Source: Polaribacter sp. ALD11
GTDB taxonomy: Bacteria; Bacteroidota; Bacteroidia; Flavobacteriales; Flavobacteriaceae
Assembly: GCF_002831685.1 (NCBI RefSeq)
Contig: NZ_CP025119.1
Span: 3,496,501-3,560,500, forward strand
Reading direction: 5' to 3'
Length of the DNA stretch: 64,000 bases
Of the stretch, positions 31,044 through 44,488 are shown one piece after another. Position 1 is the stretch's first letter; each line of letters starts with the position of its first letter. The position numbers and the translations under genes are program-made. Below the pieces are notes generated by a model. It did no database searches. It saw only the letters and a list, made by a program, of their open reading frames with translations, and had not been told where the DNA came from.

Positions 31044-31955
31044 ATGTATTTTAAAAAAATTAAGAAACATTTATTAGCAGTAACACTATTGATATTTTCT
31101 TCAATTACTTATGGCCAAAACACATTGCCGATAAGTCACGTAGAAGAAATAGACCAAATTGCAGAGATCGAAGATTCTGCCTTAAAAGCAATACTAGTAA
31201 AAGAAATAAATTCGAATAAAAAATGGAAGCGTTTAGTTGCAGGTAAGCAGATGTCTATTGGTATAGTCGATTTAAGTGATGCTACTAAGTTTAAGTATGC
31301 AGGTATGAATGACAATTTTATGATGTATGCTGCCAGTTTACCAAAAATAGCGATTCTTTTAGCAGCTATGGATGCTATAGATAAAGGCGAAATGGAGTAT
31401 ACAGATGAAATTAAAAAAGATTTACGATTAATGATTAGCAAATCTAATAATCAGGCATCTACAAGAATGATTGATAGACTTGGTTATAAAAAAATTGAAG
31501 ATGTTTTAAGAGCTCCAAAGAATAAATTATATGACGAGGAAGTTGGTGGTGGTCTTTGGGTTGGTAAAAGATATGCTGCTCAAGGCAAAAGAAATCCAGA
31601 CCCGCTTAAAGGTTTAAGTCATGCAGCCACAACTAGGCAGGTATGTAGTTTTTATTATCAATTAGCTTTAGGGAATTTAATTAATACAGCAAGCTCTAAA
31701 GAAATGTTAGAGATTATGAAAGATCCTAAATTACATCACAAATTTGTAAATACTTTAGACAAAGTGGCACCCAAAGCAACTATTTACAGAAAATCTGGTT
31801 CTTGGAGAAATTACCACTCAGATTCAGCTTTGGTTTGGGGCCCAGAAAGAAAGTATATAATTGTTGCATTAATTGATAATGATTATGGTGAACAAATTAT
31901 AAGAAATTTGGTTAAACCGTTAGAAAAGGTATTGAAAAAAGGACGTTCTTTATAG
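31044..31955 (+). CDS. Exported serine hydrolase, class A beta-lactamase-like
   Basis: 303 residues. Signal peptide ends ...SSITYGQ. The penicillin-recognising motif set is present: SLPK with Ser98/Lys101, SNN at 134-136 (SDN-type), and KSG at 250-252 (KTG-type). The omega-loop Glu of true class A beta-lactamases is not evident, so a peptidase/esterase or regulator role is as likely as drug hydrolysis. It ends 20 bp before the transporter gene on the same strand, and a larger paralogue (34795-36108) lies on the other side of the transporter. Confidence 0.85.
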   Translation: MYFKKIKKHLLAVTLLIFSSITYGQNTLPISHVEEIDQIAEIEDSALKAILVKEINSNKKWKRLVAGKQMSIGIVDLSDATKFKYAGMNDNFMMYAASLPKIAILLAAMDAIDKGEMEYTDEIKKDLRLMISKSNNQASTRMIDRLGYKKIEDVLRAPKNKLYDEEVGGGLWVGKRYAAQGKRNPDPLKGLSHAATTRQVCSFYYQLALGNLINTASSKEMLEIMKDPKLHHKFVNTLDKVAPKATIYRKSGSWRNYHSDSALVWGPERKYIIVALIDNDYGEQIIRNLVKPLEKVLKKGRSL

Positions 31956-31975
31956 TCTATTTTATGAATTAGATT

Positions 31976-34798
31976 GTGAGAAAGATTATAACTAAAACTT
32001 TTGGATTAAGAGATGATGAAATACGCATCTCTTTTTTAATGCTCTTATATATTTTTATAATTATTACCGTTTTACTAATTGTAAAACCAACTGTAAATGC
32101 CCTTTTTGTTTCTAAACTAGGGGCAGATAATTTACCATTTGGTTATCTATTGGTAGCCAGTGTAGCGGTTTTAACTTCTTATTTTTATAATAAAGCAATT
32201 AGAATTTTTTCTCTAGTTAAAGTAACAGTTATCTCTTTGGTTACTTTTAGTTTGTCTTTTATAGTACTAAGTTTGGTTATTAAATACGCTCTTCTAAGCA
32301 ATTGGATTCTCTATTTTTATTATGTTTTTATTTCTCTGTTTGCTGTAGTGGCAACATCACAATTCTGGTTGTTTGCCAATATGGTTTTTAATGCAAGAGA
32401 AGCAAAAAGAAATTTTGGCTTTATTGGAGCAGGTGGTATTGCAGGTGGTATTTTTGGAGGTTATCTAACAAGTATAATAGCGACTAATTTTGGTAACGAA
32501 TTTGCTGTTTTTCTCGCAGCTTTATTAATTTTAATTTGTATTCCTATTTTAAAAAAAATATATAATTCAAAAATTAAGTTTTTAAATTCTTTTAAAAGGA
32601 AACAAGTAATTGCAAACGAAGAAAATTTAGAAAGTTCTTCTTTACGTCTAATTTCAAAATCGAAACACTTAACTTACATTGCTCTAATAACAGGAATAGG
32701 AGTTATTGTAGCAAAGTTAGTAGATTTTCAATTTAGCGATTTTGCTCAAAAAGCAATGCCAGATTCAGATGATTTAGCAGCTTTTTTTGGTTTTTGGTTT
32801 TCAACATTTAATGTTGTTGCATTAGTTATTCAGTTATTTCTTACCAATAAAGTTCTAACAAGATTAGGTGTTTCTTCTACTTTACTAATACTTCCGTTAG
32901 CAATTGCATTTGGTAGTTTGTTGTTTTTAACCTTCCCAGAGTTATGGGTTTTAATAATTATTAAAGCTATTGATGGCAGCGCAAAACAATCTGTAAATAA
33001 GGCAGCAATAGAGTTATCTATAATGCCGATTCCTATTCAAGTTAAAAATCAAGCAAAATCTTATATAGATGTTGTTATAGATAGTTTAGCAACAGGTTTT
33101 GCAGGTTTTTTATTAATATTTTTAATTAAGAGATTAGATTTAGATACCTCTTATATAACCGTAATTATTTTACTTTTCACTTTTGTTTGGATTCTATTTA
33201 TCTATCGTTTAAGAGAGGCTTATTTTTCATCTTTTAAAGAGAATATTCAAAAAACACTCTCGTTAGAATTTAATAAAAATAAGAAGAGCGAAAATACCAT
33301 TATCGATATAAAAAACATCTTTTTAAATGGTGATGAAGAGTCTATTTTAAATGCGTTAGAAAGGTTAAAAGATTACAAACAAACTTCTTTTAACACTTCT
33401 GTAATTAAACTTTTAGAGCATCCTTCAAAAAAAATTAATGCAAGAGCTATCGAATATTTAGATTCTTTTGAAGGAATTGATATCTTAGACAAGGTAGAAA
33501 GTTTAGTGAATGAAAAAGATGATCTTTTAGCATACATGGCTTTAGATTATCTTTTGGCACATTCACCAATTTCAGACGAATCTTTTTTTAATAAATATCT
33601 AAATCATGAAAATGAATACATAGCAAACGGAGCCTTATTATCTTTGGCGAAACAAAGTTTTAATAACGCCAAGTTAGGTGTTAACTATGAGGTTGTTACT
33701 AGGCTAGAGGAGAAGGTTGTTGCGTTAAATACGGGTGAATTGTCTGATAGAAAAGAAGTTTTAGCAGGTTTGTTGATGAGTATTGCATATGCTAGAATGA
33801 CTAGTAACTATCATTTAATTAGTAAATACCTTAAAGACGATAACGCTTATATAGCAAAATTTGCAACAATTTCTGCAGGTATTACTTCTGATGAGGTTTT
33901 TATTAAGGATTTATTAGATTCATTATCAGAAAAAAAACATAGAAAAAGAGCGATAAGAGCGCTGAGCAATTATGGTCCAAAAATTATTGATTTTATCTTT
34001 AAATTGGATAAAAACGGGACACTAAAACCTTCTACTAAAAAATACATTCCGAAAATTGTAGAGTCTTTTAAAAATGAAAAAGCAGTAAGAGTTTTATTAC
34101 GCCTTTTAAGAAATAAAAATGCGATTACACGATTAGCTGCCTCTAATTCTTTAACTAAAATACTAAAGAAGAACACCAATTTATCTGTTAGCGCTAGAGT
34201 TATTAAAAATCAGATTTTAAGGGAAAGTAGTTATTATAAAAATACTTTAGAAATTATAGCTTCTATAGAATATTTAATTAATATTGACTTAGTTGATGAG
34301 GTAAAAGAAAAAAATCAAGAAGTTTATGAGGCTAGAAAAAACATTATTTCTGAGTTAGAAATTTTATTAGATGCGAACATAAAATGTATTTTCAACCTCT
34401 TAAGTTTGGTTTATAATGAAGAGGATATAAAAATGACGTATGTTGGTATACAGAGTGAAATTAAGGAAGCTAAAATAAATTCATTAGAATTTCTAGATAA
34501 TATCTTACAGCGTAAAATAAAAACAATGGTATTGCCAATTATAGAATATTATGTGGTGGATGACAACCATTATAAGTCTTCTATCATAAATTTAAAAATT
34601 ATTAGAGAAAAAAAGTTTTTAAATAGAATAGTAACCTTAGGGAATGTAAAATTAAAATCTCTTGTTATTAAATACATTCAAGCATCTAATAACAAGAGAT
34701 TAATATCGGTATTGCTACCGTTAAATAAATTTAAAAATAAAGAAGTGAAAGAATTAGCTACAAAAACATATCATTTATCTATTTCTAATAATAATTAA
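31976..34798 (+). CDS. ATP/ADP-translocase-like (Npt/TLC) transporter fused to HEAT repeats
   Basis: 940 residues from a GTG start at 31976 (LRDDEIRISFLMLLYIF follows; no nearby ATG). The N-terminal ~410 residues hold about 11-12 hydrophobic helices in major-facilitator style, with features I associate with Npt1/Npt2-type nucleotide transporters (IVKPTVNALFVSKLG, FWLFANMVFNAREAKRNFGFIGAGG). The remaining ~500 residues are helical repeats of HEAT type (e.g. ARAIEYLDSFEGID, LLRLLRNKNAITRLAASNSL), probably a cytoplasmic scaffold. Known relatives exchange ATP/ADP or other nucleotides across membranes. The substrate here is inference. The stop codon overlaps the convergent serine hydrolase by 4 nt. 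Confidence 0.8.
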   Translation: MRKIITKTFGLRDDEIRISFLMLLYIFIIITVLLIVKPTVNALFVSKLGADNLPFGYLLVASVAVLTSYFYNKAIRIFSLVKVTVISLVTFSLSFIVLSLVIKYALLSNWILYFYYVFISLFAVVATSQFWLFANMVFNAREAKRNFGFIGAGGIAGGIFGGYLTSIIATNFGNEFAVFLAALLILICIPILKKIYNSKIKFLNSFKRKQVIANEENLESSSLRLISKSKHLTYIALITGIGVIVAKLVDFQFSDFAQKAMPDSDDLAAFFGFWFSTFNVVALVIQLFLTNKVLTRLGVSSTLLILPLAIAFGSLLFLTFPELWVLIIIKAIDGSAKQSVNKAAIELSIMPIPIQVKNQAKSYIDVVIDSLATGFAGFLLIFLIKRLDLDTSYITVIILLFTFVWILFIYRLREAYFSSFKENIQKTLSLEFNKNKKSENTIIDIKNIFLNGDEESILNALERLKDYKQTSFNTSVIKLLEHPSKKINARAIEYLDSFEGIDILDKVESLVNEKDDLLAYMALDYLLAHSPISDESFFNKYLNHENEYIANGALLSLAKQSFNNAKLGVNYEVVTRLEEKVVALNTGELSDRKEVLAGLLMSIAYARMTSNYHLISKYLKDDNAYIAKFATISAGITSDEVFIKDLLDSLSEKKHRKRAIRALSNYGPKIIDFIFKLDKNGTLKPSTKKYIPKIVESFKNEKAVRVLLRLLRNKNAITRLAASNSLTKILKKNTNLSVSARVIKNQILRESSYYKNTLEIIASIEYLINIDLVDEVKEKNQEVYEARKNIISELEILLDANIKCIFNLLSLVYNEEDIKMTYVGIQSEIKEAKINSLEFLDNILQRKIKTMVLPIIEYYVVDDNHYKSSIINLKIIREKKFLNRIVTLGNVKLKSLVIKYIQASNNKRLISVLLPLNKFKNKEVKELATKTYHLSISNNN

Positions 34799-36108
34799 TT
34801 ATCACTTTCATCGTTATCGCTCTTATATTCTTCTTCTTTAATTATCGATTTTTTAGAAACATTTGCTTCATCAATAATATCATCAATTTTACTAGCCATA
34901 TACATGTGAGCGCCAGCAGAATTTTTATTTAAAACGTTAGACATTAGACAAACAATGTATTTTAAACCATTAGGGTGCTCTACAATAATAACAGAATTCA
35001 TGTAGTTAAAAACGTTACCTGCATAGCTTTTACAGTCAGGGTTTTTTGCTCGATCACATTTATAATAACTACCAGATTTAAAATAAACAGCGGCACTATC
35101 TAATCTTGGTGATCTGGCATATCTAATTCTTCTATCTGTTAAATATAGCAATCTTTTCATCTCTAAACTAGATGCTTTGTCTACAACTTTTCCTTGTTCT
35201 AATTGCACTAAAAACTTCATTAAACCTTTTGGCGTACCAATGCTCCCTCCTTTTCTACCAACATATTTGCCAGCAGGTCTTGTAAACATTCCGCCTAATT
35301 TCCATTCATCTTCTCCAATACCTAATTTTCTCAAAGGTGCGTTAACTACCGTATTTGCTAAGTTTGTAAGAGAATCTCTAGGAGTATCTATAAAATATTT
35401 CTCTGCTTTTTCTGCATCTAAAAAGAAGTAATCTTGTCCGAAGGCAGCCATTAACATCGCTTCTCTATACATAATACTTGCAGCACCATTATTACTTACA
35501 GAAACCATGTGATCTAACCATTCATATAAAGAAAACTCGTCACTAGCAACCACTTTTCTCTTTGTTAATCTATCTTTTTCAATATCATAAACAGGTATTG
35601 TATGATGATCTCCTGTTCCCCAATACCTAGAAGTTACTTTGATGTTTTTTAAATAACCAGCTCTGTCTTCCCAAGAATCTGGACATAGTTTTTGCAGTTG
35701 ATCGAATACAGCTAAAAGAACGGCGATTTTACCAACGCTTCCTGGTTGATAACCAATATTTTCTCTGTGTGCTGCATATCTTAATTTATCAGGGTTGCTC
35801 ATATCCATCACAGACATAGAATAGGCACCAGCCGGAATTATTCGTTTTAATTTACTTTCGAAATCTGTATCAGAAACTAATAAATCTTGAATACTGTCTT
35901 TATTCCTATTCGAGAGGTTTAGTTTAATATCTGCTAATTTTTTATAGGCTCCCGCAGGAATTCTATTGTATTTTACACTATCTAATTGAAACTTTCTAAG
36001 TTGATACAATCTTGCAATTCCGGTAGCTTCATAACCATCTATAGGATACTTAATGAAACCAAGGGAGGCAACAATTAAAACGGCTAATACTATATATTTA
36101 CCTTTCAT
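34795..36108 (-). CDS. Second exported serine hydrolase, beta-lactamase-like, longer paralogue
   Basis: 437 residues. An N-terminal hydrophobic segment (~4-20) works as signal or membrane anchor. Motifs: SVGK with Ser124/Lys127, SNN at 205-207, KSG at 344-346. Ahead of the catalytic domain are ~95 extra residues with two PAGAY boxes (~51-55 and ~92-96). Four or more Cys in the mature part (LCPDSW, KCDRAKNPDCK) may form disulfides. The C-terminal tail is acidic. It starts 2 nt after the dikinase-like gene, so the two are co-translated, which ties hydrolase and dikinase functionally. Confidence 0.85.
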   Translation of the reverse strand: MKGKYIVLAVLIVASLGFIKYPIDGYEATGIARLYQLRKFQLDSVKYNRIPAGAYKKLADIKLNLSNRNKDSIQDLLVSDTDFESKLKRIIPAGAYSMSVMDMSNPDKLRYAAHRENIGYQPGSVGKIAVLLAVFDQLQKLCPDSWEDRAGYLKNIKVTSRYWGTGDHHTIPVYDIEKDRLTKRKVVASDEFSLYEWLDHMVSVSNNGAASIMYREAMLMAAFGQDYFFLDAEKAEKYFIDTPRDSLTNLANTVVNAPLRKLGIGEDEWKLGGMFTRPAGKYVGRKGGSIGTPKGLMKFLVQLEQGKVVDKASSLEMKRLLYLTDRRIRYARSPRLDSAAVYFKSGSYYKCDRAKNPDCKSYAGNVFNYMNSVIIVEHPNGLKYIVCLMSNVLNKNSAGAHMYMASKIDDIIDEANVSKKSIIKEEEYKSDNDESDN

Positions 36109-36110
36109 AA

Positions 36111-39023
36111 TTATATTTTTTCTGTTAACATTATTTCTGTGCTATTTTCTACTTTAGGTGCAATTGAATTTAGATAATCAGAACTTTTGGCTTGTTTATT
36201 TTCTACAAAAGGTCTTATTTGAAACAACCAAAGCTTGTCATCTTTAAAACCAAACTCAACATCATAAGCGTAATTTTCTTCGGAAGATTTCTTCCCAATT
36301 TTAGCTCTAATTTCTGTTGCTAATTCTCTAATTTTATTCACATTACCTGTATTTAAAATAGGCTGATTAAATGTGGTATAATACTTTTTTGTACTTCCTG
36401 TTACTGGTAAACGAATGTAATCTGGTTGTCTAGCAGGACTTAATAAATAGCTGCTTTCTGCAGTAATTAATCTTGTCTCTGCAGATTGCCCATCTACAGC
36501 GCCTCCGGCTCCTCTACTAAAAGCCACTGTTAAATCGTTTTCAGAACCTTCATTAATTCCTTTTGTAATCATAACTCCAGAATAATCTACATCTACACTT
36601 GGTATAATTAAAATTGAAGGATACACATTTTCTGGATTTAATAAATATTTCTGACGCCATTTAAAACTTCTCTCTGTATAAGCAGAAGCCCAAACTTGTT
36701 TTATTCCTTGAATTATTTTTTCTTCTTTTAGAATATTGAAAAGGGTTAAATTTAAACCAGCTCCTGTAAATTCCTTCAAATCTTCCATATTGGTATCACT
36801 TCTTAAAAACACAGGTACGTTTCCAATGTCATTTCCAAAAACAGTTTTAAAATTACTCTTTAAATCGTTTATAAAACGATCATCTAAATTGATGTTTAAA
36901 ATAGCTGCATGTAATTCTTTTAAAGAAGAAATCAAGAACTTTTCTATAGCTTCTTCTGAACTAGCATTGCTTTTTAATTCTTTTGCTTTTAAAAATGTAG
37001 CATTCAAAAACTGCCAATAGGTTTTGTCCTTACCAGGCATTTGTTTGTTCATATGGGTTTTAAAAATTCCAAAAGGAATGATGATTCCCTCAACAACTTT
37101 ATTTGGGAAAAGGTGTTTTAATTCTCCTAAATTGGCTGCTTTTGGTCCGCATAAAATACCAGAATCCGTAGCTTTTACATCTCTCATATTTATAATCTTA
37201 GAAACATCTAACTTTAATTTGTCAGTTGGTACTTCAATCATATTTTTTGTTCTTTCTTTTCTATCGAACAATTTTTGTTCGATAGCTGACATGTCTTTTT
37301 CTAACTTTAGAATAACATTTCCTTTGCTAGATACTGCGTAGAATACATTTCTATTGGTATATTCTTCAAGCGATTTTAAATTTTCACTAGACAAAGCTGC
37401 GTTTGGTATTCCTAAATTTCTTGCTAATAATTGTACATGAGAAACTAAATTCCCTTCAGAAACTGTCATAATTCCTGCAACAGGTTTTAAATCTGAAGGT
37501 GGTTTTTGAAAAATATAAATATTATTTGTGTTCACTTCAACTTCATCAGGGTTTCCATCTACAACAATCAATTTTCCAAAAGCATACCCAGGGTTTAATC
37601 CTCTTATTGTACCTTGGTTGCTAATACTCATTACATTGTTATTCACTTTAGAAACCTTAGCTGCATATTTATTTAGTTGACTAACTGTTTCGCCTAAATT
37701 TAGGGTAATCGAATTCCTAATTCTGTCATCTATAAAACCATAGGCTAAAGACTCAAAAGCAGCATATTCATTTACATCTTCTTGGTAATTTGCTTTCACT
37801 AAAGAAGTACTCCATTCTACAATTCTTCTAGCATTAGTAACCAAAGTGTTTAGTGCTCCTAAGGTAGTTTTGTCCTTTTTTAAAGTACTCGAAAAAATAG
37901 GTTTTACAATATCAAATTCCCATGCTTCTACCAGGCCTGTAGCATACGATGCACACGTAAGTGTTTGTGTTTTTAAAATAGTTTCTTCTAAGGTTTCTGG
38001 AATCCAGTTTTGAGTTTCTATTAATAGAATTTTTTCTAATTGATTTGTTAAGTCTAAAAGATTTAAGCGGTCTCTACTACTTTTAAATAATGCAATATTA
38101 TATCTTAGAAGATCTAAATTATCTGTAATTTTAAGAACGATATCTTTTGCAGTAAAACTTGATTTGTCTTCATTAACAAATTTTTTTAAATTACTTAGAA
38201 CTTTATTTTTATCTGTAATTTTAGCTAATTCTTTAGCAATTGAACTGTAGTTTAAAGGTGCATAAAACGCGTTCATTGTAGCTAAGAGTTTCTCAAATGC
38301 TTTTTTTTCTTTTACAGAGATTTTAGACGCATTTTTCTTTACATAGTTTTGGACTAAATAGATATCAGATTTTTGTGGATTACCATGAATTTTAATTCGG
38401 ATGTCCATAAAATCGGCAATTTCTTCAGCCAATATTTTAGATTCACTACGCATTAATTGCGCAATGTTAGAATCGCCATTATGAGGAATGTCTTTTAAAG
38501 ACTGTCTCACCAAATAATAATTAGAATTTAAAAAATGATCATCTTTTAAAACGGTCTCATAAAACTCTTTTCCCCAAGCTTCTTCATCTTCAGATTGTAT
38601 TGCACCTCTGTAAAACTGCCCTTTTTTTAAAACCCAACCATCATCTACACTCGCTAAATACTGGCCTATTTGATATTGTTTTATTCTGCTAAAATTATTT
38701 TCTGAATCTAAAAAATCTTCCGTTTTTACACTTGCCAAAATTTCGCCAAAAAATAAATGATTGCTTTTCCTTAAGTCTAAAGCAGATTCTTTAAAACTTG
38801 CATGCTGTATTCCACCTCCAATAGAATCTGGACACGGATTTTTTGGATCTCTGATGCTACCGTCTTTACAAAACCATTTAATTCTATAGTAAGGGCCTCT
38901 ACTATCTTCTTTGTAATATTTAATTAGCTGCTTTATGTTCTCTAAGCTTTTCTTTTGTGAGGAACTATTTAAGCTAAAAAAAAATGCTAGAGTAAAAGTA
39001 AGAAGTATTTTTTTTTTCATCAT
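36111..39023 (-). CDS. Exported dikinase-like protein (phosphohistidine + ATP-grasp, PEP/pyruvate-binding)
   Basis: 970 residues. Signal peptide MKKKILLTFTLAFFFSLNSSSQ. Residues ~25-465 are helical and unrecognised. A PEP-utiliser 'swivelling' domain follows (~470-575) with the phospho-acceptor H529 in SEGNLVSHVQLLARNLGIP. Then comes a PPDK_N-type ATP-grasp domain (~605-940): GPKAANLGEL, FLRSDTNMEDLKEFTGAG, DVEFGF and LFQIRP, all key positions kept. There is no PEP-binding TIM barrel, and the order (swivel, then ATP-grasp) is that of glucan, water dikinase rather than PEP synthase. It should phosphorylate something using ATP, yet it is exported. A TAAATTTG box on this strand at 39036-39043 may be its promoter. 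Confidence 0.88.
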   Translation of the reverse strand: MMKKKILLTFTLAFFFSLNSSSQKKSLENIKQLIKYYKEDSRGPYYRIKWFCKDGSIRDPKNPCPDSIGGGIQHASFKESALDLRKSNHLFFGEILASVKTEDFLDSENNFSRIKQYQIGQYLASVDDGWVLKKGQFYRGAIQSEDEEAWGKEFYETVLKDDHFLNSNYYLVRQSLKDIPHNGDSNIAQLMRSESKILAEEIADFMDIRIKIHGNPQKSDIYLVQNYVKKNASKISVKEKKAFEKLLATMNAFYAPLNYSSIAKELAKITDKNKVLSNLKKFVNEDKSSFTAKDIVLKITDNLDLLRYNIALFKSSRDRLNLLDLTNQLEKILLIETQNWIPETLEETILKTQTLTCASYATGLVEAWEFDIVKPIFSSTLKKDKTTLGALNTLVTNARRIVEWSTSLVKANYQEDVNEYAAFESLAYGFIDDRIRNSITLNLGETVSQLNKYAAKVSKVNNNVMSISNQGTIRGLNPGYAFGKLIVVDGNPDEVEVNTNNIYIFQKPPSDLKPVAGIMTVSEGNLVSHVQLLARNLGIPNAALSSENLKSLEEYTNRNVFYAVSSKGNVILKLEKDMSAIEQKLFDRKERTKNMIEVPTDKLKLDVSKIINMRDVKATDSGILCGPKAANLGELKHLFPNKVVEGIIIPFGIFKTHMNKQMPGKDKTYWQFLNATFLKAKELKSNASSEEAIEKFLISSLKELHAAILNINLDDRFINDLKSNFKTVFGNDIGNVPVFLRSDTNMEDLKEFTGAGLNLTLFNILKEEKIIQGIKQVWASAYTERSFKWRQKYLLNPENVYPSILIIPSVDVDYSGVMITKGINEGSENDLTVAFSRGAGGAVDGQSAETRLITAESSYLLSPARQPDYIRLPVTGSTKKYYTTFNQPILNTGNVNKIRELATEIRAKIGKKSSEENYAYDVEFGFKDDKLWLFQIRPFVENKQAKSSDYLNSIAPKVENSTEIMLTEKI

Positions 39024-39167: not shown

Positions 39168-40166
39168 TTAAAATGAACATTTTTTAAACAAGAATTCCTT
39201 CCCATTTTGCAGAATATAAACCTCTTTACAATTTGTAGGATGTTTAAAATGATATTCCTCTAAAAAATTAAAATCGGTTTTATTTATTGAAAATAAACCT
39301 TCAAAATCTTTTTTTCCTCCTGGAGTATATCTTGATATTTTATAAGTTTTAATGTTTATTTTGTCTTCAATTTTAAACCATGCACCACTTCCAATTCCAC
39401 CTAACCAAGTTCCATTTTTTAACTCGAAAATATCTAAATTAGGCTCTTCAGTTCCTTTCAAATTGGGCTCTCCTTCAAATTTATTAAAAAAAGAAGCTTT
39501 GTATTCTTTTACAATAGATCTATTTGTATAATTGGTTATTTTTTGTTCATAAACATTATAAACAGTATCACTGGTATTTGCTTTTAATACATTTCCAATA
39601 GGACTTGGGGTTAACAAATTAGATTTTCTCAATTGAATACCAATCTTTTTGTTTGTAGAAGAAGCAATAATTGTATCTGTTACAAAGCGTGCACAATTGG
39701 TGCCATTTTTTATAAAAGCGCCATAAGGAATTTCTTTTTCGTCAATTAATTGATGAATAAATGTTTTTGCTTTATGAAAGTCTATTTCTTCATGAATACT
39801 AGCTACCAATCTACCATCTCCATGTGTTTTTTCTGGATGATTCTCTATCCAGAGTAAAATTTCTTCTACATTTAATAATTCATCATTTATAAAATTAGCG
39901 CTTGCAGAAACTTCTAACTCAGGGTCGGTCTCTTTAGAACGCACGCGGCCATTGCCGTAGGTTGTAATATACCGACCAAAATCAAAATAATTTATTTCAG
40001 ATTTTCCTTTTTGAAGCAATAATAAAGCAGCATGTCCTGCTTGAACAGCGTGTTGACCGCCAATACCAATTTTAGGCCAAAAATTACTTAAGATTTCCCA
40101 ATAAGCGGGTCTTACGATGGTATCTGGATAAGAAAGTATAATGATGATTCCATCAGAATTTTGCAT
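39168..40166 (-). CDS. DUF6695-like protein, possible permuted papain-fold enzyme
   Basis: 332 residues, no clear signal peptide. I recall Bacteroidota proteins of this type as DUF6695. A His in QAGHAALLLL (~44) followed later by a Cys in NGTNCARFVTDT (~158) has the His-before-Cys order of permuted papain-like folds (YiiX/LRAT type), which act as amidases or acyltransferases. DFGRY and GNGRVRSKETD lie between. The C-terminal ~110 residues form a separate domain (WLGGIGSGAWFKI). It is 4 nt downstream of the DUF6095 gene, in an operon with murQ, suggesting a link to cell-wall recycling; function unproven. Confidence 0.8.
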   Translation of the reverse strand: MQNSDGIIIILSYPDTIVRPAYWEILSNFWPKIGIGGQHAVQAGHAALLLLQKGKSEINYFDFGRYITTYGNGRVRSKETDPELEVSASANFINDELLNVEEILLWIENHPEKTHGDGRLVASIHEEIDFHKAKTFIHQLIDEKEIPYGAFIKNGTNCARFVTDTIIASSTNKKIGIQLRKSNLLTPSPIGNVLKANTSDTVYNVYEQKITNYTNRSIVKEYKASFFNKFEGEPNLKGTEEPNLDIFELKNGTWLGGIGSGAWFKIEDKINIKTYKISRYTPGGKKDFEGLFSINKTDFNFLEEYHFKHPTNCKEVYILQNGKEFLFKKCSF

Positions 40167-40170
40167 TTAA

Positions 40171-40413
40171 TTAATTATTAAAGATGGCTTTTAATAAAAT
40201 CTGAAAGGTTTTAAAAGCGAAGTAAATGGTAAAAATGATTAGAATTCCTGCAGCAATTATAATAACATAAGATAGTATCTCTTTTGGGGTATCTTTAAAC
40301 TTTTTTAAAGCCTTAAACCCCATTGTAAGAGAAACAGGTGAAGCAATAAATAGAAAAATTAAAAGACTTAAGTATTTTAAACCTTTTCCTAATAAATTTA
40401 CATTAGTACTCAT
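40171..40413 (-). CDS. DUF6095-like small membrane protein
   Basis: 80 residues, two hydrophobic helices (~14-34 and ~46-68) joined by a basic loop (KALKKFKDTPKE). I recall the family as DUF6095, next to murQ in Flavobacteriaceae. Its start overlaps the murQ end by 11 nt, showing translational coupling. Function unknown. Confidence 0.85.
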   Translation of the reverse strand: MSTNVNLLGKGLKYLSLLIFLFIASPVSLTMGFKALKKFKDTPKEILSYVIIIAAGILIIFTIYFAFKTFQILLKAIFNN

Positions 40414-41224
40414 TTTTGTAATTTTTTATTGAATTTCTAACATTTCCATACTTTTCGATTAATTCTGCTGCTTCATTTTGGTCGATATTTAATTCATTTG
40501 CTAACATCTTTTGACCTCTTTCGACTAACTTATTGTTAGATAACTGCATATCGACCATTTTATTACCTTTTATGCGTCCTAATTGAACCATTGTTGCAGT
40601 AGAAATCATGTTTAGTACTAGTTTTTGAGCTGTTCCTGCTTTCATTCTAGAACTTCCTGTTATAAATTCTGAACCGACAACTACTTCAATAGGAAATTGA
40701 GCAACATTTGCCAGTGGGCTATCTTTATTGCAGGTAATACAACCTGTAATAATATTGTTATCACTGCATTTTTCTAAAGCAGAAATTACATAAGGTGTTG
40801 TACCAGAGGCAGCAATACCTATAACTGCATCTTTGTCTGAAATTTTGTGTTCTTGTAAATCTAACCAACCCTGTGTTTTAGAGTCTTCTGCATTTTCTAC
40901 AGCTTTTCTAATGGCAATGTCACCACCAGCAATAATACCAACTACAAGTTCATGAGAAACGCCAAAAGTTGGCGGGCATTCGGAAGCGTCTACAACGCCT
41001 AGTCTACCAGAAGTTCCAGCACCAATATAAAATAATCTACCTCCATTTTTAAGTTTTTTAATTATAGAATGGGTTAAGGCTTCTATTTGTGGCAAAGATT
41101 TTTCAACAGCTAAAGGCACTGTTTTATCTTCGTTATTTATGTTGCTTAACAATTCTTTTACAGACATCTTCTCTAGATGGTTGTACTTAGAATCTTGCTC
41201 TGTAGTTTTTATAAAAATCATCAT
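40403..41224 (-). CDS. murQ: N-acetylmuramic acid 6-phosphate etherase
   Basis: 273 residues. A SIS sugar-phosphate domain with FYIGAGTSGRLGVVDASECPPTFG (~65-90) and SSRMKAGTAQKLVLNM (~190-206), both family signatures. It cleaves the lactyl ether of MurNAc-6-phosphate to give GlcNAc-6-phosphate and D-lactate during peptidoglycan recycling. Slightly shorter at the C-terminus than E. coli MurQ (298). Start 41224 or the adjacent Met at 41221. First gene of the murQ-DUF6095-DUF6695 set. Confidence 0.95.
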   Translation of the reverse strand: MMIFIKTTEQDSKYNHLEKMSVKELLSNINNEDKTVPLAVEKSLPQIEALTHSIIKKLKNGGRLFYIGAGTSGRLGVVDASECPPTFGVSHELVVGIIAGGDIAIRKAVENAEDSKTQGWLDLQEHKISDKDAVIGIAASGTTPYVISALEKCSDNNIITGCITCNKDSPLANVAQFPIEVVVGSEFITGSSRMKAGTAQKLVLNMISTATMVQLGRIKGNKMVDMQLSNNKLVERGQKMLANELNIDQNEAAELIEKYGNVRNSIKNYKNEY

Positions 41225-41274
41225 CCAAAAATACTGTTTTTTTGCATGTTTGAATGATGATTTAAACTGAAGTT

Positions 41275-42105
41275 TTATTTTTTATCTATTAAGTCTATGT
41301 CGTAAGTATCTGTTTCAGAAATATGGAAGTAACCTAAAGGAAAATTAGATTCATTTGTTGTGTTTGTTATATTGCCTAATAAAGATGAAGGTGCAGATTG
41401 AAAAGGACCACCACCATTTGTACCACTTTGGTTTATTAAAACTCTAAAATAGGTGTAGTATTCTTTTGTAATACCAAATAACTTTATAGTTATGTTTTTA
41501 GGGAACTCAATATTTTCATCTTCATAATAATAAGAAAAATTATATTCAGATCCGTTAAAATACCTGTCTTCAATAATAACATAATTATAGGTGTCAATAT
41601 TAAAAAGGTAATAATTTTCTACTGCTATATTGTCTGTAAATGAGATTTTTAGCTCAATTTGATCTTCAGAGAATAAGGTGTCGTCACCTTGTTGTATGTT
41701 GTCAATTTTTGTTGATTTTACTTTTGTCGCTTTACCTTTGTACGTTTCATTGTTATGAATTACTGTTAATTGATAGATGATATCATCTTCTGGAATGAAG
41801 GTGTTAATAGGTTTATAGTTACCATCTAAATCTCCATCAACAAAATTAATAACAGCGTTGTCAGATAAATTAGTTAAAAATACAATCGCATTTGTAACGA
41901 CAGGTATTTCTTCTTCAAAATAATCTGCAGACAACCTTAACTTTACAACAGTATTTGCGGTTGCGGGAGTTTCATCAAATAAAACTTCAAAAGAAGCATC
42001 AATTACTAATTTGGGCTCAATTGTAGGCAAATCGACCTCCACTATTTTTTCGCAATTTGCGAAAAAGAGTAAAATTATAAACGGAAATATATATATCTTT
42101 TTCAT
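41275..42105 (-). CDS. DUF4249 lipoprotein, TonB-receptor partner
   Basis: 276 residues. Lipoprotein signal MKKIYIFPFIILLFFANC with the Cys at 18. The body is beta-rich with DUF4249 features (VVEVDLP near the N-terminus, YQLTVIHNNETYKGKA in the middle). These surface lipoproteins are regularly encoded directly after a TonB-dependent receptor and probably help capture its ligand. It starts 4 nt after the receptor gene. Confidence 0.88.
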   Translation of the reverse strand: MKKIYIFPFIILLFFANCEKIVEVDLPTIEPKLVIDASFEVLFDETPATANTVVKLRLSADYFEEEIPVVTNAIVFLTNLSDNAVINFVDGDLDGNYKPINTFIPEDDIIYQLTVIHNNETYKGKATKVKSTKIDNIQQGDDTLFSEDQIELKISFTDNIAVENYYLFNIDTYNYVIIEDRYFNGSEYNFSYYYEDENIEFPKNITIKLFGITKEYYTYFRVLINQSGTNGGGPFQSAPSSLLGNITNTTNESNFPLGYFHISETDTYDIDLIDKK

Positions 42106-42109
42106 AGTA

Positions 42110-44488
42110 TTAAAAGTTGAAATTATAAGTTACAGAAGGAACAATACCAAAAATTGAGGTTTGAACGGCTTCATTTCTTAATGTTTCTTGATTTTGTCTA
42201 AATGCTAAAGAAGCTGCATTTTGTCTTCCATATAAATTATAAATACCAAAAACCCATTCTCCTTGCCATTTTCTGTTTTTATTTTTTTCTGGTGTTAAAG
42301 TTGCAGAAATATCTAACCTATGATAGGTTGGAAGTCTGTCTGCATTTCTTCTATTGTCGTCATAAATTGGCACATTTAAACCTTGCATTTCATATTGCCC
42401 AACAGGGTAATTTGTTGGTTGCCCTGTTTGAAAAATAAAATTAGAGTTGAATTTCCATTTCTCATTTAGTTTATAACTTGCATTGATAGAAAAGTCATGT
42501 GTTTTATCATAAGGTGTACTGTACCACTTGCTATTATTAATTCCTGGTTCATTTGTATTTCTACCTGCTGTTAATTGCTCTGAACGAGATAAGGTATAAG
42601 CAATCCATCCTTGAAAATCTCCTTCATTCTTTTTAAACAAAACTTCTAAACCATAAGCTCTTGCTTTTCCGTTTAAAATAACTGTTTCAATTTCATTGTT
42701 CGCAATTAGGTTTGCGCCATTTATATAGTCGATTCTATTCTGAATGTCTTTGTAGAAAGCTTCCGTTTCTAACGTATATTTTCCTTCTTTAAAAGACTTG
42801 AAATAACCAATGGCATATTGATCTAGTAATTGTGGTTTTATGTATTTACCACTTGGCGTCCAAACATCTAATGGAGTAGGAGATGCAGTGTTAGAAAGCA
42901 AGTGTAAATATTGAACCATTCTGTTGTAACTTGCTTTTATAGACGTATTATCATCTAAAGTGTAAGACATCGAAACCCTTGGTTCAAAATTATAAAAACT
43001 AGAAATTACATCGTTTCTTTTAAAATTTTCTACTCCTATTGCTTCAGCAGATTCGTATTTTTTAAATTCGTCATTATAAGTTACAGCTTGGTTGTTTTCG
43101 TAAACGTTTAATTCCTCTTGACCTAAACGAATAAAATTGCTAAAACGAACGCCATATTGTAGCCTTAAATCATCTGTGATTTTATGTTCTGCATCTATAT
43201 AAGCAGCAAATTCATTGGCATATTTGTCAATTAATTTTTCTGCAACAATACCAGAATCTTCTCTATTTGGTATAATTTCTCCCGGGTTAAATTTGATGTA
43301 AATATTATTAACTCCGTAATTCAATTTTATTTTTTCACTTACATAATGGTTAAAATCATATTTAAGGTTGAAGTTGGTAATACCAGAGTCCCATTCAAAA
43401 CCAACAAAATCTAGCGTCAATCCGTAGAAATAATCAGAATAAATTAAAGATAGATTTGAGAATAATTTGTCAGTAAAAAGATGATTCCAACGTAAATTAC
43501 CCACCTTATTTCCATATGTATTTACAAAGTTATCACTAATTCCAAAAACATCTTTTCCAAAATAACCAGAAAAGAAGACACTATTCCTATCATTTATACG
43601 ATAGTTGATCTTCATATTTAAATCATAAAAATACGCTGTATTATCATTGTCAAAAAGCGGCAAAAAGAGATGTGCATAAGAAGATCTACCACCTATTAAA
43701 AAAGAGATTTTTTCTTTTTTAATAGGGCCTTCAATTAATAATCTAGAAGAAACTAAACCAATACCGCCAGTAACATTAAAATCTTTACTGTTTCCTTCTT
43801 TTTGATAAATGTCTAATACAGAAGACAACCTTCCGCCGTATTTAGCAGGAATACCACCTTTGTATAATTTTACGTTTTTAATTACATCTGGATTAAATAC
43901 AGAGAAAAAACCAAATAAATGAGAAGAATTAAAGACAATTGCTTCATCTAATAAAATTAAATTTTGATCTGCTGCACCACCTCTTACATTAAAACCAGAA
44001 GCACCTTCACCAGCACTTGTAACCCCTGGTAGAAGTATAAGTGATTTTATAATGTCGGCTTCTCCCAGAACCACTGGAATCTGTTTGATAGTGGATGACG
44101 TTAAATTATTAACGCTCATTTGTGGCGTTTTTAAATTCAGTATTTCAATATTACTTTCTATTATAATTTCATCTAAACTTTGTGATTCTTCTTCTAGCTT
44201 AAAGTTTTTTGATATTTTTTCTGAAAGTTCTAATGGTTCTATAATTGTGGTATAGCCTAAATAGCTAATCTGTAATTTATAATTTCCTTTGGGTATTGTA
44301 ATCGAGTAAAAACCATATTCATTTGTGGTTGTACCAGAATTTAATTCAGGAATATAAATGGAAACCCCAATTAAAGTCTCATTATTAGAGTTGTCATAAA
44401 CAGTTCCGCTAAGTGTAATTTTTTCTTGACTGAGCATTGGTAAACTCATCAAAAAAAAGAGTAGCAGCAATTTTTTTAAGTATAACAT
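42110..44488 (-). CDS. TonB-dependent outer-membrane receptor
   Basis: 792 residues. Signal peptide ends ...SLPMLSQ. An N-terminal carboxypeptidase-like regulatory domain (~24-105) precedes the plug (~120-230, with NVRGGAADQNLILLDEA) and a large beta-barrel; the C-terminus VTYNFNF ends in Phe as outer-membrane barrels do. It imports a substrate energised by TonB/ExbBD. The ligand is unknown; there is no SusD gene, so a glycan is less likely than with SusC. Paired with the DUF4249 gene. Confidence 0.93.
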   Translation of the reverse strand: MLYLKKLLLLFFLMSLPMLSQEKITLSGTVYDNSNNETLIGVSIYIPELNSGTTTNEYGFYSITIPKGNYKLQISYLGYTTIIEPLELSEKISKNFKLEEESQSLDEIIIESNIEILNLKTPQMSVNNLTSSTIKQIPVVLGEADIIKSLILLPGVTSAGEGASGFNVRGGAADQNLILLDEAIVFNSSHLFGFFSVFNPDVIKNVKLYKGGIPAKYGGRLSSVLDIYQKEGNSKDFNVTGGIGLVSSRLLIEGPIKKEKISFLIGGRSSYAHLFLPLFDNDNTAYFYDLNMKINYRINDRNSVFFSGYFGKDVFGISDNFVNTYGNKVGNLRWNHLFTDKLFSNLSLIYSDYFYGLTLDFVGFEWDSGITNFNLKYDFNHYVSEKIKLNYGVNNIYIKFNPGEIIPNREDSGIVAEKLIDKYANEFAAYIDAEHKITDDLRLQYGVRFSNFIRLGQEELNVYENNQAVTYNDEFKKYESAEAIGVENFKRNDVISSFYNFEPRVSMSYTLDDNTSIKASYNRMVQYLHLLSNTASPTPLDVWTPSGKYIKPQLLDQYAIGYFKSFKEGKYTLETEAFYKDIQNRIDYINGANLIANNEIETVILNGKARAYGLEVLFKKNEGDFQGWIAYTLSRSEQLTAGRNTNEPGINNSKWYSTPYDKTHDFSINASYKLNEKWKFNSNFIFQTGQPTNYPVGQYEMQGLNVPIYDDNRRNADRLPTYHRLDISATLTPEKNKNRKWQGEWVFGIYNLYGRQNAASLAFRQNQETLRNEAVQTSIFGIVPSVTYNFNF

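Follow-up and report, generated by a model that had tools for sequence, protein, structure and literature searches.

A conserved four-gene cassette of Bacteroidota that suggests ATP-powered chemistry outside the cytoplasm

The ATP/ADP carrier AXER/SLC35B1 of the endoplasmic reticulum lumen supplies ATP to secretory kinases of the Fam20 type. In glucan, water dikinase (GWD), a phosphohistidine (His) domain is followed by a C-terminal ATP-grasp domain, and in rifampin phosphotransferase (RPH) the order is ATP-grasp, acceptor domain, His domain. The excerpted text of PMC12892837 describes a His of the GWD phosphohistidine domain as essential, and that of Major, Embley and Williams (2017; PMC5381601) presents fusions of NTT carriers with HEAT repeats as widely conserved proteins of unknown function. 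Here, we report on a cassette of four genes, named hyd1, ntt, hyd2 and dik, in a 64,000-nucleotide stretch of the Polaribacter sp. ALD11 genome (positions 3,496,501 to 3,560,500 of contig NZ_CP025119.1; the window), which encode two serine hydrolases, an NTT-HEAT carrier and a dikinase-like enzyme with a predicted export signal. This set of genes, present in many marine and other Bacteroidota, suggests that ATP-powered chemistry is run outside the cytoplasm; that the four form one co-inherited extracytoplasmic system, in which the carrier supplies ATP to exported dik, we regard as an even bet.

Profile searches (E 1e-20) were made with alignments of dik (A1), NTT-HEAT (A2), hyd2 (A3) and hyd1 (A4) over 296 Bacteroidota genomes drawn evenly. 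They revealed dik in 11 genomes, and hyd2 and hyd1 were each found in those same 11, which belong to six families of the grouping used (f1, f5, f16, f23, f29 and f35), three of them (f1, f23 and f35) also containing genomes devoid of dik. NTT-HEAT was matched in 22 of the 296 genomes, namely in 10 of the 11 with dik and 12 of the 285 without it. Among the latter 12 matches, seven were weak (78-118 bits) and five long (443-512 bits). Nine of the 10 matches in dik-bearing genomes scored at least 669 bits and were of the cassette type (that of G062 being cut by contig ends), and the one of G199 (463 bits) grouped on the tree with NTT-HEATs from genomes lacking dik. Long NTT-HEATs (at least 440 bits) were present in 10/11 versus 5/285 genomes (Fisher 2.7e-14, relatedness ignored). 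No A2 match was found in G183 at 1e-20, and a looser search retrieved a single-domain TLC carrier there (E 2.4e-18; Pfam TLC, 38.7 bits); with this protein counted, any TLC (A2 or PF03219) occurred in 11/11 genomes with dik versus 14/285 without it. Fisher's tests, not corrected for phylogeny, gave 3e-20 for hyd2 with dik, 5.6e-12 for any A2 match and 1.4e-13 for any TLC. Co-occurrence of the four families, which an earlier note on this DNA had named as a check of its proposal, was thus borne out, and none of the contrary outcomes listed there that are testable here occurred.

The genes were also linked. We compared the best 80 of 125 relatives in the genome collection, added eleven short loci from the 296-genome set, with 1.5 kb flanks only (91 loci), and made wider draws in which dik was present in 33/199, 10/114 and 4/146 genomes; 41 of these 47 dik-bearing genomes were covered, six with partial matches being left out, and five of the 47 distant loci are stretches around other NTT or cassette genes (L116, L118-L121). 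All-against-all clustering of open reading frames (ORFs) gave counts of 91 for dik, 89 for hyd2, 67 for ntt, 65 for hyd1 and 16 for the next family in the 91 loci, and of 42, 38, 34, 35 and 6, respectively, in the 47 distant ones. Among loci having at least 6.5 kb after dik, hyd2 on the same strand and ntt/hyd1 on the opposite strand were found within 7.5 kb in 61/75 and 22/30 (together 83/105), and L041 and L131 are syntenic as well, having been missed by the script solely through an over-long ORF start overlapping dik. Of 137 loci, some of them short or repeated, 88 showed precisely the order dik>hyd2> <ntt<hyd1. Median gaps, based on automatic starts, were 2 nt between dik and hyd2 (125 loci) and 21 nt between hyd1 and ntt (91 loci); in the window, 2 nt separate the dik stop from the hyd2 ATG and 20 nt separate hyd1 from ntt. 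The ORF coordinates (cf. Table 1) agree with the four ORFs, strands, gaps and tail-to-tail overlap described earlier. Judged by sequence, dik shares an operon with hyd2, and hyd1 in most cases shares one with an NTT-family carrier that belongs to a separate clade. Distance matrices of the four proteins from 89 loci were correlated (r 0.82-0.89, to which shared species ancestry contributes), with 0/200 permutations as high for each pair. In L128 and L133, both of family f5, all four genes were closest to Flavobacteriaceae among the loci compared, as if the cassette moved as a unit, and a mixed cassette in L012 (identity to that of the window: dik 64%, hyd2 75%, ntt 38% and hyd1 60%) looks as if the two operons could be re-paired.

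Table 1. Features of the cassette, in window coordinates (aa, amino acids; TM, transmembrane helices)
Feature	Position	Strand	Description
hyd1	31044-31955	+	predicted exported serine hydrolase, Beta-lactamase2 family; S98xxK101, S134NN, K250SG
ntt, whole ORF	31976-34798	+	GTG start; 940 aa
ntt, membrane part, aa 1-429	31976..33262	+	TLC/NTT-like carrier, about 12 TM
ntt, HEAT-repeat part, aa 430-940	33263..34798	+	predicted cytoplasmic, positive-inside rule
ntt/hyd2 overlap	34795..34798		tail to tail, 4 nt, two convergent operons
hyd2	34795-36108	-	predicted exported or membrane-anchored serine hydrolase; PBP-A/class A beta-lactamase fold; S124xxK127, S205-x-N207, K344SG
dik	36111-39023	-	970 aa; predicted exported ATP-grasp/phosphohistidine 'X,water dikinase'-type enzyme
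dik, signal peptide, aa 1-22	38958..39023	-	predicted from sequence
dik, N-terminal mainly helical domain, aa 27-460	37644..38945	-	invariant C52/C64
dik, swivelling phosphohistidine domain, aa 463-578	37290..37637	-	H529 at 37437-37439
dik, ATP-grasp domain, aa 606-945	36189..37208	-	closest: rifampin phosphotransferase, PEP synthase

Several genomes depart from this arrangement. Fifteen of them, mainly Leeuwenhoekiella and Maribacter, in which ntt or hyd1 is not directly beside hyd2 within the examined stretch, were searched whole: an NTT was found in all 15, and hyd1 adjoined an NTT in 14, while the hyd1 of L103 belongs to the dik locus L076. G178 has the complete set of four genes in dispersed positions. 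Nine dik-bearing genomes had no NTT in the dik stretch; five of these (G380, G422, G463, G517 and G580) contained a close NTT on another contig, several of these NTTs lying at contig ends, where adjacency to dik is possible. The rest had a single-domain TLC (G183 and G572), other NTTs (G199) or none (G519, at E 1e-15; 85% complete), and the same search found no NTT in 11 genomes without dik. The dik proteins of G183, G199, G519 and G572 (loci L113, L114, L154 and L155) form one clade in a quick tree, with a value of 99 in the Shimodaira-Hasegawa-like approximate likelihood ratio test (SH-aLRT), so that one event, in which the cassette NTT was lost or replaced, would explain all four. Three of them retain both hydrolases beside dik, and the G519 contig ends before the hydrolase positions.

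The dik protein matched Pfam PPDK_N (93.9 bits; cut-off 27), as the earlier note had expected, whereas the PEP-utilizers His domain, expected as well, stayed below threshold (12.8 versus 23.1 bits). The motifs pointed out before were all found in place, i.e., H529, K628, R741 (RSDTNMED), D921/E923 (DVEFGF) and Q935/R937 (LFQIRP), and these seven catalytic residues are invariant in 104/104 alignment rows; together with the structural model they support the order helical domain, His domain, ATP-grasp domain. By its PPDK_N ATP-grasp with K, R, D/E, Q and R and its swivelling phosphohistidine domain, dik belongs to the superfamily of pyruvate phosphate dikinase (PPDK) and phosphoenolpyruvate (PEP) synthase. 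However, the C-terminal PEP/pyruvate TIM-barrel of PEP synthase and PPDK proper is lacking, since the C-terminus comes directly after the ATP-grasp domain and the N-terminal part is helical; likewise, as had been noticed from the sequence, no PEP barrel family was among the Pfam matches at E 0.1. Nor does dik fall into the rifampin phosphotransferase family of NCBIfam (47 bits versus a cut-off of 999). No starch-binding or GWD family was matched in Pfam or NCBIfam, the N-terminal domain not having been folded and searched separately; this helical domain is presumed to bind the acceptor. Its cysteines C52 and C64 are invariant, which fits an oxidising compartment. A strict hydropathy test for an N-terminal export signal was passed by 117/133 dik, 88/101 hyd1 and 123/127 hyd2 proteins versus 248/781 other ORFs of the same loci, and dik has an A/S/G-Q cleavage pattern, residue 23 being Q in 100/104 rows and residue 22 being A, S or G in 99/104. 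The export proposed earlier for dik and the hydrolases was supported by both observations, and, judged from sequence and model, the phosphohistidine/ATP-grasp active site of dik is intact, and an export signal precedes it. A second PPDK_N protein in the same genome (L001:172-3228; 1018 aa) has a different architecture and no obvious signal peptide.

For the carrier, Pfam returned TLC (48 bits; cut-off 21), which was the anticipated family, and HEAT_2 (44.1 bits; cut-off 27.7), the latter in accordance with the HEAT repeats recognized earlier and now placed at aa 430-940; ntt is hence an NTT-then-HEAT fusion of the TLC/NTT family, and the outcome of MFS matches only did not occur. Among solved structures, it matched plant NTT1 (chain 9j3j, E 1.7e-8). 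Seven charged residues are conserved in 97/97 sequences, of which K37 and K247 lie within hydrophobic segments, K337, E346, K361 and D365 in the region 331-367 between two segments, and D369 at the edge of the last one; in plant NTT1, a Lys and an Asp are aligned with K361 and D365, and a Glu with D250 (93% conserved). The family-average hydropathy displays 10 hydrophobic segments, of which two could each accommodate a pair of helices, which fits a predicted topology of 12 TM with positive loops inside and a cytoplasmic HEAT part. In a quick tree with some long branches, the cassette NTT-HEATs (49 rows) form one side of a branch with a support of 99, versus 8 other Bacteroidota NTT rows. The window's genome (3.57 Mb, one contig) contains a single TLC match. 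Two NTT-HEAT genes were found in one genome of Tenacibaculum adriaticum (L095 and L110), each adjoining a hyd2 copy, with hyd1 adjacent only in L110 within the examined stretch. A second NTT-HEAT clade is present in genomes without dik (L158-L161); on inspection by eye, it is followed by genes resembling those for exported proteins and lipoproteins, and it may represent another uncharacterised NTT-HEAT system. NTTs of a third type (1053 and 1011 aa; L163 and L164) lie beside large proteins, with a look-alike gene of 1039/1068 aa in both, as judged by eye.

Both hydrolases, earlier recognized by SxxK/SNN/KSG-type motifs, matched Pfam Beta-lactamase2 (cut-off 22) with 72.9 bits for hyd1 and 35.9 bits for hyd2, the middle motif of hyd2 being S205-x-N207. 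The best solved-structure match of the hyd1 profile was PBP-A (2j9o, E 0.0022), and the predicted structure of hyd2 has the PBP-A/class A beta-lactamase fold, so that fold and motifs (SxxK, SxN, KSG) place them in this fold group. They are not class A beta-lactamases in the sense of NCBIfam (hyd1, 24.6 bits versus 200), and no NCBIfam family was matched by hyd2 at E 0.1. At E268, the candidate acid of the omega loop in hyd2, 38/44 rows have E and 4 have D, so the position is not invariant, and an N-terminal YPIDGY/F element was found in 124/127 hyd2 ORFs. By sequence and model, hyd1 is a paralogue of hyd2, a hydrolase of the acyl-enzyme type. With regard to the glycan, lipid or cell-wall component suggested earlier, we lean towards a peptidoglycan or D-amino-acid type of substrate, mainly because of the fold of hyd2 and the PBP-A match of the hyd1 profile. 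In one locus only (G064, L112:15073-15585, minus strand), the neighbor of hyd1 encodes a member of the histidine phosphatase superfamily (PF00300, 59.3 bits), putatively an exported lipoprotein and a possible counter-enzyme of a phosphohistidine protein.

The boldest reading compatible with these findings is a bacterial periplasmic ATP economy, in which a dedicated translocator of the inner membrane would provide ATP to an exported dikinase; coupled to two PBP-A-like acyl hydrolases, this enzyme would phosphorylate an envelope component or ligate it in an ATP-dependent manner. We give this reading a tentative probability of roughly 0.4. In the co-inherited system proposed above, the carrier would move cytoplasmic ATP out and spent nucleotide in, and periplasmic dik would bind ATP in its ATP-grasp domain and become phosphorylated at H529. 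The His domain may then swivel to the N-terminal helical domain, where an acceptor would receive the beta-phosphate, the overall reaction being ATP + X + H2O -> X-P + AMP + Pi or an ATP-driven condensation. In view of the PBP-A fold, the mechanism of hyd1 and hyd2 might involve a Ser acyl-enzyme, and their substrate might be the same envelope material, perhaps resembling peptidoglycan or D-amino acids. A supply of the dikinase by the transporter, as the earlier note proposed, is favored by the phylogenetic profile, synteny, co-divergence and the separate carrier clade. Several points weigh against the proposed system: (i) the dik clade of G183, G199, G519 and G572 lacks a cassette-type NTT-HEAT; (ii) the mirror-tree and profile statistics are inflated by relatedness; (iii) export was judged by hydropathy and conservation, and a loose hydropathy test was passed by 544/781 control ORFs too and carries little weight; (iv) the HEAT part, being predicted cytoplasmic, should not dock exported enzymes; and (v) no fold was identified for aa 27-460 of dik.

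Transport in the opposite direction would turn the system into a scavenging one, where the carrier imports periplasmic nucleotides and dik and the hydrolases act on phosphorylated or acylated substances from outside the cell, the dikinase reaction possibly running towards ATP and the net flow being inward. The functionally characterised NTTs, from parasites and plastids, do take up ATP and nucleotides according to the excerpted text of PMC5381601, and a TLC-family carrier accompanies dik in all 11 dik-bearing genomes of the 296; nevertheless, we consider this unlikely, since dik keeps the complete forward ATP-grasp/phosphohistidine machinery and scavenging offers no obvious need for a linked, clade-specific, HEAT-fused carrier. 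It also seems improbable that dik is an ATP-dependent ligase or condensing enzyme, comparable to the prodigiosin ligases PigC and RedH, making an exported product tailored by hyd1 and hyd2. Both ligases were matched in NCBIfam (63.2 and 45.4 bits), far below the cut-offs of 1300 and 1350, and the predicted fold of dik is compatible with a kinase or a ligase alike, but its top matches are phosphotransferases, i.e., PEP synthase (94.5 bits, under the cut-off of 598) and, as nearest neighbor by fold, rifampin phosphotransferase.

The same fold neighbor, along with the class A beta-lactamases, a weak Tet(65) MFS match in NCBIfam (19.4 versus 800 bits) and an MFS_1 score barely over its cut-off (35.6 versus 33.4 bits), might point to a xenobiotic defence island, in which a periplasmic RPH-like enzyme, beta-lactamase-like hydrolases and an MFS-like carrier inactivate antibiotics. 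We hold this to be very unlikely: the scores are far under resistance-family cut-offs, PADLOC gave one match only, a weak one to HEAT, the carrier scores better as TLC than as MFS, and the linkage is kept from Flavobacteriaceae to distant orders while the neighbors change. Finally, the sub-threshold PEP-utilizers match and the reliance of export on prediction would also be consistent with a catalytically dead or cytoplasmic dik whose linkage is historical, which is hardly credible given the invariance of H529, K628, R741, D921, E923, Q935 and R937, the conserved signal-peptide pattern and the co-retention of the genes even where they are dispersed.

Next to the cassette, window positions 39168-44488 carry TseH-like/DUF6695, murQ, DUF4249-like and TonB-dependent-receptor-like genes, the last two named by eye; among the 80 scanned loci, 8 from Polaribacter have the murQ, TonB and TseH-like flanks along with the cassette, with one more TseH-like match in L060, and the set of four was not seen together in other compared loci. 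Due to this narrow distribution, we place these flanks outside the cassette.

If the periplasmic ATP economy were true, bacteria would be carrying out phosphoryl chemistry in a place other than the cytoplasm, to which it is thought to be restricted, and a new phosphorylated or ligated envelope component is predicted. The cassette gives a hint at the function of NTT-HEAT fusions, and cultured marine Flavobacteriaceae provide a candidate carrier that is tied to a predicted exported enzyme expected to need ATP, which makes the question of bacterial ATP use outside the cytoplasm directly testable. Literature searches, limited to open-licence papers, found no description of the cassette or of an exported dikinase among the papers listed, and the searches made found no counterpart of the whole system, while its parts come from known families. 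In comparison with rifampin phosphotransferase, PEP synthase and pyruvate phosphate dikinase, dik differs by its predicted export and by having no PEP/pyruvate barrel family match, and its domain order is unlike that of RPH. It shares with plant GWD/PWD the His domain before a C-terminal ATP-grasp, but these enzymes are plastidic, whereas dik is predicted to be exported, is linked to hydrolases and a carrier, and has no GWD or starch-binding match. The hydrolases have 12-17% identity (two rows) to PBP-A (Tll2115) and class A beta-lactamases, and hyd2 has the extra N-terminal YPIDGY/F element. The ntt protein has the TLC domain and HEAT repeats of the fusions covered in the excerpted text of PMC5381601, is separate from the 8 other Bacteroidota NTT rows, and is linked to a predicted exported dikinase, a link absent from that text. 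The closest parallel in principle is AXER/SLC35B1 with Fam20, where a carrier likewise supplies ATP to kinases outside the cytosol, although the families are unrelated and the compartment is a eukaryotic organelle rather than a bacterial periplasm.

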